Shown: positions 23,600 through 58,887 of the stretch, in pieces
Position numbering within the stretch: the first letter of the stretch is position 1
Layout of the letters: every line of letters starts with the position of its first letter
Source of the DNA: Cytophagales bacterium
GTDB lineage: Bacteria; Bacteroidota; Bacteroidia; Cytophagales; Microscillaceae
Direction of reading: 5' to 3'
Length of the DNA stretch: 64,000 bases
Assembly: GCA_013298075.1 (NCBI GenBank)
Contig: JAAFJG010000007.1
Span: 1 to 64,000 of the forward strand
Notes under the pieces: model-generated
The model's database searches: none
Told to the model about the DNA's origin: nothing
What the model saw: the letters and a program-made list of their open reading frames with translations, nothing else
Translations under genes and position numbers: made by a program

Positions 23600-24623
23600 T
23601 TAAGGGATTCGATTGCCTACAAAAGTACGTGGAGGCATGATAGCACCCGTTACAGGATGTCTAAGTTGGTAATAAATGGTGATTTTATTGCTGTTTTTTT
23701 CATCTAACTTACCCCAACCTCTATTTTCTTGTAAAACGGCTGTATAATTAGTATTTATATAGGTTACTTGATGATTGTTATTATAGGTTAGAATTTGAGG
23801 ATATAAGCATCTCATCAATGAAAAATATTTGTATTTTCCATCATCTCGAAAATTTATAGGTCCAACTATATACAATCCTCCTGACAAATTATCTATCCAA
23901 GTAAAATTCCCCCAATCATCAGCATTGTAACCACTATTCGGATTGCCTGCATAATAATCCCTATTATAAATATTAACATCGTAGATATTTGTCGGACTTT
24001 CTAAGTCATATCCTCTAAACTTACCAAAATAACGAGGATAAACAATCCTTTGCCCTTGATCATTACTATACTGAACAATCGTCAATTTTTTTATAAATAT
24101 TAACATCGTAGATATTTGTCGGACTTTCTAAGTCATATCCTCTAAACTTACCAAAATAACGAGGATAAACAATCCTTTGCCCTTGATCATTACTATACTG
24201 AACAATCGTCAATTTTTTCGTAATTTTTTCGGTTTTGTTGGGTATATCTTGGTGGCATTTGTCATCCTCTGCATACTTGACGGTCAAAGAAATATCAATA
24301 GTAGTAGGTAAAAACTGATAATCTACGGCAAATCCCAAGGTTACTTTTCTGCCCAATCTTTTGTTAGGTTCTATGCCTATCTGCCATTCATACGAAGCTG
24401 CTCTTACATCATTTGCCTCAAATGTAATGGGTTGAGTAAAATCAGAATAAATCGTATCTGCCTCTACAGGTTCTAAAACCTCTACACCACTAAAATTTTG
24501 GTAGAATAACTTCGCAGTGATAGTAAAGTCAAGTTTAGCAGGGCAAGGCTCCACAGGGTCGTTTTTAGAAGGTTTGCAAGCTGCAAAGAGCAAGCAAACC
24601 AATAAAATATATAAAAATTTCAT
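23600..24623 (-). pseudogene. Third tandem lipoprotein gene, frameshifted by a 127-bp duplication
   Basis: Nearly identical to the two genes upstream. It begins with MKFLYILLVCLLFAAC, and the frame is intact for about 177 codons up to SPTNIYDVNIY. It then breaks because 127 bp are present twice in direct tandem (23964-24090 and 24091-24217). As it stands the frame ends as a 185-residue protein. Removing one copy gives 1024-127=897 nt, exactly the 298 codons plus stop of the intact paralogues, and restores the normal C-terminus TFVGNRIP. The duplication is perfect, so it is recent, reversible, or an assembly error. Confidence 0.88.
23964..24217. repeat. Perfect 127-bp tandem duplication
   Basis: 23964-24090 and 24091-24217 are identical base for base by inspection. 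The unit starts TTATAAATATTAACATCG and ends CAATCGTCAATTTTT. Both junctions lie at TTTTTT/TTATAAA. 127 is not a multiple of three, so copy number switches the reading frame. Confidence 0.93.
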
Positions 24624-47715: not shown

Positions 47716-48288
47716 TTATTCTACGATAAAGGCATAGCTCTCATTAATTTGTGAACTTCCGATTGTTCCATTAGGAAGAATATGTAAATTATTATCGTTG
47801 GTATCAAACCTAATACTAGCTCCAACCGATGTTCTGTTATTAAACAAATTACCTCTTGAGAACTGAATGAAAAAGGTATCTTTCTTTTGCGGAATAATAT
47901 AAAAATCTATATTGTATTGATCGTTCACACAATTCGACATAGCTTTGGCGAACATTTTGTCGCCTGTATTACGTTCAATTGTCCCCTTTTTAGAGTATAT
48001 TTTAAATGATTCATCATACGAGATTTTGGTATCATTTCTTTCAGTTTCCGCAATAAAAAATGGCACAAAGAAAGTTCCATCGTTAAATAAATATGTTCCA
48101 CCATCTATTGTAGGAAAATTAGCATTTGCATTTAGATTTAACCTTAAAGTATCACCTAATCTAATACTTTTTGTATTTGGGGTAACTTTAAACGAAGCAT
48201 TGACTATAATATCTAAGTTAGGTCTTGGTTTACAAGCATTTAATAGTATTATAGACAAGACTATAACAATTATTTTTCTATAGTCCAT
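47716..48288 (-). CDS. Small lipoprotein, downstream copy
   Basis: Lipoprotein of 190 residues starting MDYRKIIVIVLSIILLNAC, lipobox at C19. It is a paralogue of the gene at 48479: both continue with (K)P.PNLDI.VNASFK and later RLGDTL and GNLFNN. The protein is beta-rich; the family is not recognised. Its ATG lies inside the last codons of the 49-codon gene upstream (11-nt overlap), so the two are probably translationally coupled. The identical arrangement at the upstream unit points to a functional link with the metallopeptidase-type protein. Confidence 0.75.
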   Translation of the reverse strand: MDYRKIIVIVLSIILLNACKPRPNLDIIVNASFKVTPNTKSIRLGDTLRLNLNANANFPTIDGGTYLFNDGTFFVPFFIAETERNDTKISYDESFKIYSKKGTIERNTGDKMFAKAMSNCVNDQYNIDFYIIPQKKDTFFIQFSRGNLFNNRTSVGASIRFDTNDNNLHILPNGTIGSSQINESYAFIVE

Positions 48289-48427
48289 AACGTTCAAATA
48301 GATCTCGTGTATCTAAATTTGCTCCGTAAGTTCTTTCAAAACGAACCCTATATTCTTGCATACTCTTTACTTTTTGTTGCATTAAATCACTTACAACCGC
48401 TTGCATTTTTTTAATTTTTTCTTTCAT
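48278..48427 (-). CDS. Orphan C-terminal module of the HELGH lipoprotein
   Basis: A 49-codon open frame (MKEKIKKMQAVVSDLMQQ..., ending TRDLFERYGL). From residue 14 on it matches the last 37 residues of the 689-residue protein at 49047 (FDLMQ, SMQDFRARF, TYG, LF..YGL; about 58 % identity by eye). It ends in the same overlap with a downstream lipoprotein start. It may be a real peptide needed for coupling or just the leftover of duplication. No signal peptide. Confidence 0.6.
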   Translation of the reverse strand: MKEKIKKMQAVVSDLMQQKVKSMQEYRVRFERTYGANLDTRDLFERYGL

Positions 48428-48441
48428 ATTTTTATAAATAA

Positions 48442-48466
48442 CCTCTCTATTTTTGAGATAGAGAGG
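48442..48466. repeat. Hairpin between tandem units, copy 1
   Basis: Identical to 47679-47703. It lies between the first lipoprotein stop (48479) and the start of the orphan module (48427). Confidence 0.7.
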
Positions 48467-48478
48467 TATTTTTTATTT

Positions 48479-49057
48479 TTATTCTACAATGAAACCATAA
48501 AAAATAGACCTATCAGCACCACCCAGCGGAACAAGTTCTAAATTTTGATTATTACCATTAAAATCAATTTTAGCACCAACAGAATAGTTATTATTGAATA
48601 AATTCCCTCTTGAGAGTTGAATGATAAAGGTATCTCTTTTTTGCGGAACAATAAACATATCTATATTATATTGATTATTAACGCAGTTTGTCATTATTTT
48701 GCCAAACACCCAAGGACCTGGATTACGTTCAAAAGTTCCTTTAGTTGTGAAAATTGTAAACATATCTTGCCGAGAGTTTATAAAACCATTTGAATTGTTT
48801 GAATCCATTTCTGCAATAGCTACTGGAGCAAAAATTGTTGCATCATTAGCAAGATAAGTTCCACCACTACTTGTTGGAAAATTAGCGTTGGCAGTTAGCG
48901 AAAGTTTTAATGTATCTCCTAACCTAATTTTTTTTGTATTAGGCATTATCTTAAAAGATGCATTGACTACAATATCTAAGTTAGGCTGTGGCTTCTTGCA
49001 ACTACCTAATAATACAAGAGATGTTATAATTATAACAACTATTTTTTTATAGTCCAT
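48479..49057 (-). CDS. Small lipoprotein, upstream copy
   Basis: Lipoprotein of 192 residues starting MDYKKIVVIIITSLVLLGSC, lipobox at C20; a longer frame from 49108 has no signal at its start. The mature part is beta-rich with PNLDIVVNASFKIMPNTKKI and RLGDTLKLSL, similar to the downstream copy. Its ATG overlaps the final codons and stop of the HELGH gene by 11 nt (ATGGACTATAA), so expression likely depends on translation of that gene. It may be a partner or inhibitor of the metallopeptidase; this is inference from coupling only. Confidence 0.75.
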   Translation of the reverse strand: MDYKKIVVIIITSLVLLGSCKKPQPNLDIVVNASFKIMPNTKKIRLGDTLKLSLTANANFPTSSGGTYLANDATIFAPVAIAEMDSNNSNGFINSRQDMFTIFTTKGTFERNPGPWVFGKIMTNCVNNQYNIDMFIVPQKRDTFIIQLSRGNLFNNNYSVGAKIDFNGNNQNLELVPLGGADRSIFYGFIVE

Positions 49058-51116
49058 AATGAAAAAATAGTTTTTGTGTATTTGTGTTAGATCCATAAGT
49101 GCTTTCAAAACGAGCCCTAAAGTCCTGCATACTCTGTACTCTTGGTTGCATCAAGTCGAATATTTGCTTAGTGGTATAACCAGAAATTTCATCGTGAACC
49201 CTTTCATCTGTATTTGCAAATGTATTAGGATCTACATCCATCAAATCATAAAACAAACCACAAGGAATAAAAGTATTGAAGAATCTTTCGTTTATTTCGG
49301 CGTGTTCTACCAATGTTCTTGATTGCCAACCTCCCGCTAAAGCATCAGGCATAAGAAATTGTTGTGTTGGATAATATTGCATACCTACTTGATATAGCAT
49401 ATATTGCGCCCACGCTTCAGGTAATGCACAAAAACGACCAGGTTGACTATTGATGTTAGTACCATAAATAGGTCCATTATAGTTCGAACTTACAGTATAT
49501 CCAATAAATTCTGTCCAATAAATAGGACCTACTTGGAAAAAATGGCTTGTGTGTCCTAATTCGTGGTAAGTCAACGCTTTGACATAAGAAGTGCTTGAGA
49601 TAACATCGTCTTGGTCTGAGCCATCTGAAATAACAACATCAGGCAAAAATCCATTCAATGCGTTTGCAAAAGATGAACTAAGAAAATTAGGGGTATTGGT
49701 TAGCCTTCCCATAATATCTGCTAAATAATTTACACTATTTAAATAACCAAACATAGGGGCGCTTCCTGCGTTTCTTTTCCATCCCCAAACAGCAAAGATA
49801 GTTAATTTACTTGGGTTTCTTATATTTTTTTGTTGAGCAACAGTTCTATATTCATGTAGTCCGTTCAAAATAGTACTCCACATTTTTGATTGTTTGTGGT
49901 CTGTAAAAGCAACTTGTAAATTTGATAAAGCAGAAGATGACCTAAACCCAACTACATGTAATGCGTTAGGAAGTACAAATGCTCCCACTGCCGCAAGCCC
50001 AGCCCAAGCCCCTCTAATATCTAAAGGTATAATGGTTGCGTTTTGATTATGGAAACTCACAAAAAATAAACTACCAAATAACAAACGAACAGGGATGAAA
50101 TAATTACCGTTAGTAGTTGTTCTCGCACTTACAATTCGTCCCCAATGAATAACATTGACCGTTACATTGACAACAGGTACATTTTGTCCTCGAACATCAT
50201 CTCTTACTTGTATCGACCCTGCAGGATTTCTTCCCCAACCAAATATATTAGACACTCCGTTAATAAGTGGGCTAAAAATTCCTACTGCATTGCTAAATAC
50301 TCTTATTATGTTACGAATAAATGAGCGAAATCTTTTTTGTTTATTTTTTTGGAAACCTCCTGCAAGAAGTCCTTCTCGAACAGAAGTATAAAGTTCAGGA
50401 TAGTCCAAAGATAAAGTCATCATTGTCTTTTCATCGATATTGTTTGATACCAAATGAGTAAAAAACTCGAGCATAACTTCGTTTTCTTTTGGAAAATATA
50501 AAGTATCTAATACTTCTGCGGGTGTTTGTAAATTTAGGCTTGCTAATTTTTGAGGTGTAAGAATAGCATAAATTTTTCCATTGTTTTTGAATGTACTCAA
50601 ATAATCGTTTACTTCGTCTTCTCCCTCCATTTCTTGTGTGGTATAAGAAGTACTATCTAAAGGAAAAGGCAATACACGAATCGTACTGTCTGATTTGAGT
50701 ATTTGAGCAAAATTCTCAGTTTGAGATTTTACACTTGGTTGCCAACTCACATATAATTGTAAATCTTGTGGGTCAATGGGTGTATTTGCCAAATTTTGAG
50801 CAATATCTTGTCTCAAATTATCAAATTCCTTAATATCATTGGCTGAAAGCATAGATATTTCTCTGAACGCATCTTTTGCTTCTCTTATACTTTTGAGAGA
50901 GTAAGGATTTTGTTTACCACCTAATTTAGGGCTTGGAACATAATTTTCCCCCGCATTTTTATTTTTTGCGGTTTGTTTTTCAGGTGCTAATTCTTCCGTT
51001 TTAGGACGGCAAGAAGATAGCATTAATAATGAGCAAGCCATAATAAAGACAAATTGTTTACATTTGACGTAAAGATGGCGGCACGATGGCACGATGGCAC
51101 GATGGCACGATGGCAC
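49047..51116 (-). CDS. Lipoprotein with HELGH metallopeptidase motif, probably phase-variable
   Basis: Up to 689 residues. The signal region reads VKCKQFVFIMACSLLMLSSC with the lipobox at C36 (numbered from the GTG at 51116). Residues about 300-365 resemble a carboxypeptidase-regulatory-like beta domain. A zinc-peptidase motif HELGH lies at 518-522 (ALTYHELGHTSHFF), and a glutamate in ALPEAWAQYM downstream could be the third ligand, so a surface metalloprotease is likely. The true start is unclear. The best-placed ATG (51130, about 27 nt after the expected transcription start) is out of frame because of five octamer repeats; in-frame choices are GTG 51116 and ATG 51041. The stop overlaps the next lipoprotein gene. 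Confidence 0.75.
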   Translation of the reverse strand: MPSCHRAIVPSCRHLYVKCKQFVFIMACSLLMLSSCRPKTEELAPEKQTAKNKNAGENYVPSPKLGGKQNPYSLKSIREAKDAFREISMLSANDIKEFDNLRQDIAQNLANTPIDPQDLQLYVSWQPSVKSQTENFAQILKSDSTIRVLPFPLDSTSYTTQEMEGEDEVNDYLSTFKNNGKIYAILTPQKLASLNLQTPAEVLDTLYFPKENEVMLEFFTHLVSNNIDEKTMMTLSLDYPELYTSVREGLLAGGFQKNKQKRFRSFIRNIIRVFSNAVGIFSPLINGVSNIFGWGRNPAGSIQVRDDVRGQNVPVVNVTVNVIHWGRIVSARTTTNGNYFIPVRLLFGSLFFVSFHNQNATIIPLDIRGAWAGLAAVGAFVLPNALHVVGFRSSSALSNLQVAFTDHKQSKMWSTILNGLHEYRTVAQQKNIRNPSKLTIFAVWGWKRNAGSAPMFGYLNSVNYLADIMGRLTNTPNFLSSSFANALNGFLPDVVISDGSDQDDVISSTSYVKALTYHELGHTSHFFQVGPIYWTEFIGYTVSSNYNGPIYGTNINSQPGRFCALPEAWAQYMLYQVGMQYYPTQQFLMPDALAGGWQSRTLVEHAEINERFFNTFIPCGLFYDLMDVDPNTFANTDERVHDEISGYTTKQIFDLMQPRVQSMQDFRARFESTYGSNTNTQKLFFHYGL

Positions 51117-51119
51117 GAT
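51080..51119. repeat. Octanucleotide tandem repeat (GGCACGAT)x5
   Basis: Five perfect copies at the 5' end of the HELGH lipoprotein gene. The unit is much richer in G+C than its surroundings. Eight is not a multiple of three: 4 or 7 copies would join the ATG at 51130 to the gene's frame, while the 5 copies present do not. Confidence 0.95.
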
Positions 51120-51162
51120 GTATTATTCATGATTTTTAATTATAATTTTTTTAAATACAATG

Positions 51163-51170
51163 CAAAAGTA
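51163..51170 (-). promoter_or_regulatory. TAnnTTTG promoter box for the HELGH lipoprotein operon
   Basis: TACTTTTG on the minus strand. Transcription would start near 51157 and include the ATG at 51130 and the octamer repeat. The remaining gap to 51581 is AT-rich with nothing recognised. Confidence 0.55.
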
Positions 51171-53684: not shown

Positions 53685-53686
53685 AT

Positions 53687-53720
53687 TAAAACTTTTAAAA
53701 CTTTTAAAACTTTTAAAATT
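53687..53720. repeat. Short tandem repeat between the PorE-like and AlkB genes
   Basis: Three copies of AAAACTTTT in a row, non-coding. A simple slippage product; no function seen. Confidence 0.8.
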
Positions 53721-58405: not shown

Positions 58406-58887
58406 TTATTTTTTTTATAAATACTATTTTGTTTAAAAATATGTATGTTAATTTTTTTCAATATCCTCTATATTTATCTGGAGGATATTCTATAATTTAA
58501 TAGAATAATTTAACCTAAATCAATATGGGCGACATAATCATATAGGCTTATAAGGGCTTAAATTTAGTATAAAATTATTTTTTTGTGTTTAAAACATTAA
58601 TTAAAAATAGATACGACAAATTCATGTAAGTATTTTTAATTAATTTAACCAAATATTAAATATTCAAAAATGCCTTAATCATCTTTAAAAAACCTTTTTA
58701 TGTTAAATTCAAAATGTTACTCATATTGATACAAAGGTACATTCTTTTTTTTACAAAAAAATATTTCCTAAGTTCTCAGTAATTTGTTTTTTAGATGCTT
58801 ACTTATTTACCACACGAAAAATTAAAGTACAACTATTTTATTTTATTTATAAAATTTTCATAAAATTAAAAAAACAAACTAAAAAAA
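58406..58887. other. Gene-free region before the TamB-type gene
   Basis: AT-rich. It holds the family C relic at 58464-58485 (TCCTCTATATTTATCTGGAG), a stretch ATTTCCTAAGTTCTCAG (58765-58781) that is the exact inverse of 45754-45770, and a minus-strand TACCTTTG box at 58733-58740 with no gene behind it. No other feature seen. Confidence 0.5.

Follow-up and report, generated by a model that had tools for sequence, protein, structure and literature searches.

A candidate octanucleotide-repeat phase-variation locus at the 5′ end of a peptidase-like lipoprotein gene in a Cytophagales bacterium

Phase variation in Bacteroidota has been described mainly as DNA inversion. Surface proteins and capsules of Bacteroides are known to vary in phase by this mechanism (reviewed in PMC11868660). 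Octanucleotide repeats have been put forward as candidate switches in Haemophilus influenzae, where the positions described are upstream of or between genes (PMC2651432). Phasome surveys have retained 6- to 9-mers present in at least three copies (PMC5953494), or longer units present in at least five, with tracts near the cut-off possibly mutating at rates below 1e-5 (PMC6321876). Here we describe a locus of a type known from other bacteria and rarely described in Bacteroidota, which is, judging from its sequence, most likely a random on/off switch. Our searches of the open-access literature turned up no comparable slippage switch reported from Bacteroidota. The locus lies in a 64,000-nt stretch of contig JAAFJG010000007.1 from a Cytophagales bacterium (GenBank assembly GCA_013298075.1), referred to as the window in the rest of the text; all features of the locus are on the minus strand.

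An earlier note, made from the letters of the window alone, had placed five perfect copies of an octamer behind an ATG, followed by the frame of a lipoprotein with an HELGH motif. Each of these elements was recovered. The candidate start codon (51128-51130, hereafter ATG 51130) has the A-rich context AATTAAAAATC-ATG and opens the leader ATGAATAATAC, which is kept in a paralogue of the gene. The first unit of the octamer, ATCGTGCC, begins 11 nt after the A of this ATG, the spacer between them being AATAATAC, and five perfect units follow one another (51119-51080, or 51080-51120 including a partial unit; 5.1 copies with a 100% match according to TRF). On the 3′ side of the array, GCCATCTTTACGTC leads into the lipoprotein signal peptide KCKQFVFIMACSLLMLSSC, within a long frame of 691 open codons that runs to 49047.

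The unit is 8 nt long, not a multiple of three, and is free of stop codons in all frames, so that each frame reads a rotation of the peptide IVPSCHRA. By frame arithmetic, ATG 51130 enters the long frame when the number of copies (n) is 1, 4, 7 or 10. With five copies, the state found here, it opens an out-of-frame reading that stops after 35 codons (51023-51130), just as the earlier note had it when it assigned four or seven copies to the lipoprotein frame; with six, the copy number of the paralogue, the stop comes after 26 codons. The stop of the 35-codon frame overlaps the in-frame ATG of Met32 as TAATG (51025-51021). The locus has in this way the features of translational SSR phase variation: a perfect repeat of a unit length indivisible by three, located within the frame close to the start, and a full-length frame at some copy numbers with early stops at others.

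We assessed the repeat background in a 0.81-Mb sample of the 4.71-Mb genome (29% GC). Units of 7 or 8 nt in at least three perfect copies occurred only in the array at 51080-51119 and in that of its paralogue, and the same held for units of at least 5 nt in at least five copies; a simple estimate from base composition puts the number of 8-mer arrays of such length expected by chance in the 0.81 Mb at about 7e-13. An assembly error in the array is unlikely, since its 41 bp are far below the apparent k-mer of 127. Elsewhere in the window, an exact two-copy tandem duplication whose period of 127 equals that k-mer (23964-24218) is probably an assembly artefact, and a perfect 9-mer, TTAAAACTT, repeated 3.7 times, occupies a short gap between an OmpA-like gene and the next gene (53686-53718).

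Candidate translation starts were compared using a position-specific model of start context trained on 234 clear starts of the genome. ATG 51130, which the earlier note had taken as the start, has the best context of the candidates, above 96% of the training starts, the ATGs at 51041 and 51023 being far poorer (7% and 1%, respectively). In-frame GTG 51116 scored above 33% of the training starts and above 98% of internal ATGs, and GTG 51092 ranked at 0% of the training starts. Nine of 358 long frames have no ATG in their first 60 codons, suggesting that non-ATG starts are rare in this genome. Because the lysines of the signal peptide are located between the array and the next ATG, an interval that contains no ATG, a full signal peptide needs a start in or upstream of the array; initiation at ATG 51041 would remove these lysines together with part of the hydrophobic stretch. 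At n = 5, GTG 51116 could give low expression, and re-initiation at the TAATG would yield a protein devoid of signal peptide.

The promoter box claimed earlier at 51163-51170 was found as part of a Bacteroidota-type promoter-like motif, TTG-N20-TACTTTTG (51193-51163), whose TTTG has ATG 51130 32 nt downstream of it, with an A/T-rich leader in between. The pattern matches 47 times in the AT-rich window, and on its own the motif is weak evidence. It gains weight because the surrounding block of about 200 bp is repeated elsewhere in the genome, at the end of contig C75, and stops there at the equivalent position ahead of the ATG.

The main frame (49047-51116, 689 codons when counted from the GTG) codes for a predicted lipoprotein with an HExxH peptidase-like motif. 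Inspection of its N-terminus revealed the signal peptide up to the cysteine of an LSSC lipobox (51009-51065). The HELGH motif (49551-49565) has HEFAH as its counterpart at the same place in the paralogue, and downstream of it both proteins conserve PEAWAQYM; the Glu of ALPEAWAQYM (49416-49418) is a candidate third zinc ligand of gluzincin-like type. A distant relative from another family (L066), the sole one among 395 genomes of the phylum, carries HETAH and VAEAW, so that HExxH followed by a Glu in the position of a third ligand is found in both paralogues and in L066. The conserved motifs fit a putative gluzincin-like metallopeptidase. A single-sequence AlphaFold model of the protein had a pLDDT of 37 and was unusable. 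Of the designation "surface metallopeptidase" proposed earlier, the sequence shows the HExxH with its downstream Glu and the lipobox; neither Pfam and NCBIfam nor the PDB sequences returned a significant hit. No homologue of the gene was found in 36 relatives including two congeners, and a search of genome contigs confirmed none.

A search of the whole genome revealed one further array, on contig C110, where the leader ATGAATAATAC is followed by six copies of the octamer. The 11-nt leader is identical at both loci, and the protein encoded on C110 is 58% identical in amino acids, over its length, to the peptidase-like lipoprotein. Neither array is in frame with its own ATG. The presence of five and six copies in paralogues of one genome indicates that the length of the array changed after the duplication. 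Over 580 codons compared in the gene bodies (codons 105-690), dS was about 1.25 and dN/dS about 0.31, and stop codons are absent from about 690 and 717 codons of the two bodies. Both long frames thus appear to be under purifying constraint and maintained as proteins, for which reason genes that are permanently off would be odd. Identity between the loci is mosaic: it reaches 95-97% in the upstream block of about 200-210 bp and 94.7% at the DNA level in codons 13-70, drops abruptly to 53-60% past codon 70 or so, and recovers to some 80% towards the 3′ end and across the lipoprotein genes that follow. The upstream 210 bp or so and the first 70 codons or so form a cassette common to both loci.

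The second locus is split between two contigs. Its upstream block stands at the end of C75 and finishes with AAAAAT immediately before the ATG. A dispersed element begins at this contig end (CAATATGGGTGACAT...), and its other end (...ATGTCACTCATATTG) precedes AAAAATCATG on C110. The ends of C75 and C110 overlap by 12 bases, and the element reconstructed across them measures 215 bp, has terminal inverted repeats and is flanked by a 6-bp target duplication, AAAAAT. Because both contigs point to one insertion site, we infer that C75, the element and C110 are joined as one locus in which the element separates the promoter from the ATG. This MITE-like element, about 210 bp long and bearing the inverted ends CAATATGRGYGACAT, has matches at about 25 or more sites of the genome, one of them in the window at 58521-58728. 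We also considered the promoter block common to the window and C75 as a sign of an invertible promoter, an interpretation that was rejected since a duplicated locus split by the MITE-like element explains it. No invertible promoter was seen at the locus itself.

Downstream of the peptidase gene lie two lipoprotein genes. Lipoprotein 1 (48479-49057) shares 11 nt with the end of the peptidase gene, its ATG overlapping the peptidase stop, which makes translational coupling between the two plausible, and a 74% identical gene likewise sits behind the paralogue. A terminator-like hairpin (48441-48467) separates lipoprotein 1 from lipoprotein 2 (47716-48288; 60% identical to lipoprotein 1) and recurs after the latter (47704-47678). 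Between the two, a mini-frame (48278-48427) carries an orphan peptidase C-terminus with 58% identity to residues 652-689, and it overlaps the start of lipoprotein 2 as the peptidase end overlaps the start of lipoprotein 1. The orphan C-terminus, this overlap and the repeated hairpin indicate that a unit made of the peptidase end, the lipoprotein and the hairpin was duplicated. Standing behind a hairpin with a short leader frame of its own, lipoprotein 2 is not bound to switch together with the peptidase; the earlier suggestion that coupled lipoproteins switch along is hence plausible for lipoprotein 1 and does not extend to lipoprotein 2. The orphan C-terminal frame may act as a translational coupling leader for lipoprotein 2. 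Behind the second peptidase gene, three small-lipoprotein paralogues with 69-74% identity to lipoprotein 1 are arranged in tandem (G000:C110 113360-115254, in L008). In the two congeners, the neighbouring OmpA-like gene is kept at 84-86% DNA identity, but other genes stand upstream of it; the peptidase-lipoprotein cluster is accessory.

Three copies of the octamer were found in only 14 stretches when 84,980 species genomes were scanned. One of these, in a MAG labelled Rikenella microfusus (DYQK01000011.1, referred to as L057), has ATGAAAAATCAA followed by 3.4 units of ATCGTGCC, the octamer standing right behind an ATG that is in frame with a 239-aa protein whose lipoprotein signal peptide is KLLFVLLIAVTFASC; the gene is unrelated and belongs to Bacteroidales. 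The L057 scaffold contains a gap of 100 N at the array, with flanks that overlap by exactly 55 bases, the overlap ending just past the third unit. The base that follows is the point where the two flanks split, one leaving the array after three copies (C) and the other entering a further copy (G). The 55-base overlap matches, as expected, a branch in a k = 55 assembly graph, for which mixed array lengths in the population would be the simplest cause. The argument is indirect, since a branch might also stem from the leader being present twice in the genome, but a search of the L057 genome found no second leader locus.

In 395 genomes of the class, the octamer array occurred only in the source genome, besides one two-copy match inside another gene, and none was detected in viral contigs. 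Non-coding or degenerate arrays also exist in UBA4073, Psychrobacter and Slackia. Those of Bacteroidales UBA4073 (L058, L060, L063 and L065) are numerous, dispersed in one genome and degenerate, mixing ATCGTGCC, TTCGTGCC and ATCGTGCT, and they show no obvious placement at gene starts. On a Thermochlorobacteriaceae contig (L064, 52-81), the octamer array forms the spacer of a CRISPR whose repeats are ATTTCAATCCCACATTGGTGCAATTAGAAC, indicating that a CRISPR system once acquired DNA with ATCGTGCC arrays.

We consider it probable that the locus is a translational phase-variation (contingency) locus switched by the copy number of ATCGTGCC. Transcription would begin just upstream and ribosomes would initiate at ATG 51130, the number of units then fixing the frame in which they exit the array. 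With 1, 4, 7 or 10 copies they would enter the lipoprotein frame (ON), adding a short N-terminal extension of IVPSCHRA type that would be lost with the signal peptide. Five copies would lead to the stop after 35 codons, leaving the gene OFF, or expressed at a low level from weak GTG starts, and the six copies of the paralogue to the stop after 26. Strand slippage in living cells would add or remove a unit and thereby switch the peptidase-like lipoprotein, presumably an outward-facing protein, and lipoprotein 1 may switch along through the 11-nt overlap. If the locus is such a switch, the best reading of the present assembly is that both genes are OFF or low. Of the OFF state proposed in the earlier note, the part that stands is that n = 5 is out of frame with the ATG; complete silence is more than the moderate context of GTG 51116 allows one to claim.

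Both copy numbers reach the phasome-survey cut-offs for such units, which speaks for a switch. Against it, copy numbers of five and six are low and could mean a slow rate of slippage, both arrays of the genome are out of frame with their ATG, the two congeners are without the peptidase genes, and an in-frame GTG of moderate context is available. Phase variation appears nonetheless better supported than when it was proposed from the window alone, by the best-context start, the six-copy paralogue, the constrained frames and the recurrence in L057. A bolder version, in which a ATCGTGCC frame switch placed right behind the ATG of lipoprotein genes recurs in Bacteroidota, having arisen independently in unrelated genes, and gives graded output (high from the ATG, low from the GTG at n = 5, lowest from the GTG at n = 6), is tentative and on balance doubtful.

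Three other explanations compete with a copy-number switch. Every unit contains a GTG and the 8-nt period covers all frames, so that an in-frame start exists at any n of at least 3; a constitutive protein could then be made from a GTG inside the array, the length of which would be nearly irrelevant or would only grade the output. Such a frame-tolerant start would account for two frames that stay open while out of frame with their ATG, and at n = 5 it could use GTG 51116 with the context rank given above. However, ATG 51130 is only 14 nt further upstream and its far better context should capture the ribosomes. With six copies, the GTG that is in frame sits in the second unit and its equivalent context is weak (8% of training starts). 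Starts other than ATG seem rare (9/358), and L057 has its very ATG in frame. We thus regard a frame-tolerant start as unlikely.

The array might also be an accident, an expansion-prone octamer that grew behind the ATG of a dispensable gene, both copies of which are dying, with the MITE insertion as part of the decay. The non-coding and degenerate arrays of UBA4073, Psychrobacter and Slackia, the accessory nature of genes missing from congeners and the element that splits the second locus would all suit such a history. We nevertheless find it quite improbable, given that some 690 and 717 codons have remained free of stops despite high synonymous divergence, with dN/dS about 0.3, and that leader, array and signal peptide have been kept or homogenised between the copies. 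In a last alternative, the array would serve mainly as a recombination target for homogenising or exchanging the 5′ expression cassette (promoter, leader and signal peptide) between the paralogues, frame effects being secondary. The near-identity of the upstream 210 bp (95%) and of the codons up to about 70 (94%), followed by 53-60%, is what such exchange would leave behind. Yet there are just two loci, the cassette edges are far from the array, and ordinary gene conversion requires no tandem array, and we give this alternative very little credence.

Should the copy-number switch be real, slippage-based contingency loci would join DNA-inversion switches in Bacteroidota, and repeat-number contingency loci would also be at work in environmental members of the phylum. 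Like the lic and mod systems of Haemophilus and opa of Neisseria, the locus has a repeat of a unit indivisible by three that stands 5′ in a gene for an envelope protein and whose copy number sets the frame, and its paralogues differ in copy number. Unlike them, it relies on an 8-mer that is GC-rich within a genome of 29% GC, its copy number is low (5-6) and its switching is a candidate one; it also differs from the H. influenzae octamers (PMC2651432) in that the array lies inside the frame. The HELGH and HEFAH motifs and the downstream Glu conserved in both paralogues recall gluzincin-like HExxH metallopeptidases, from which the putative peptidase differs in having no significant counterpart in Pfam, NCBIfam or PDB sequences and one distant relative in 395 genomes. 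With the inversion systems of Bacteroides the locus shares a broad bacterial group and envelope proteins as targets. In contrast to their site-specific inversion, the switch proposed here would act by frameshift through repeat number, and would have no need of an invertible promoter.
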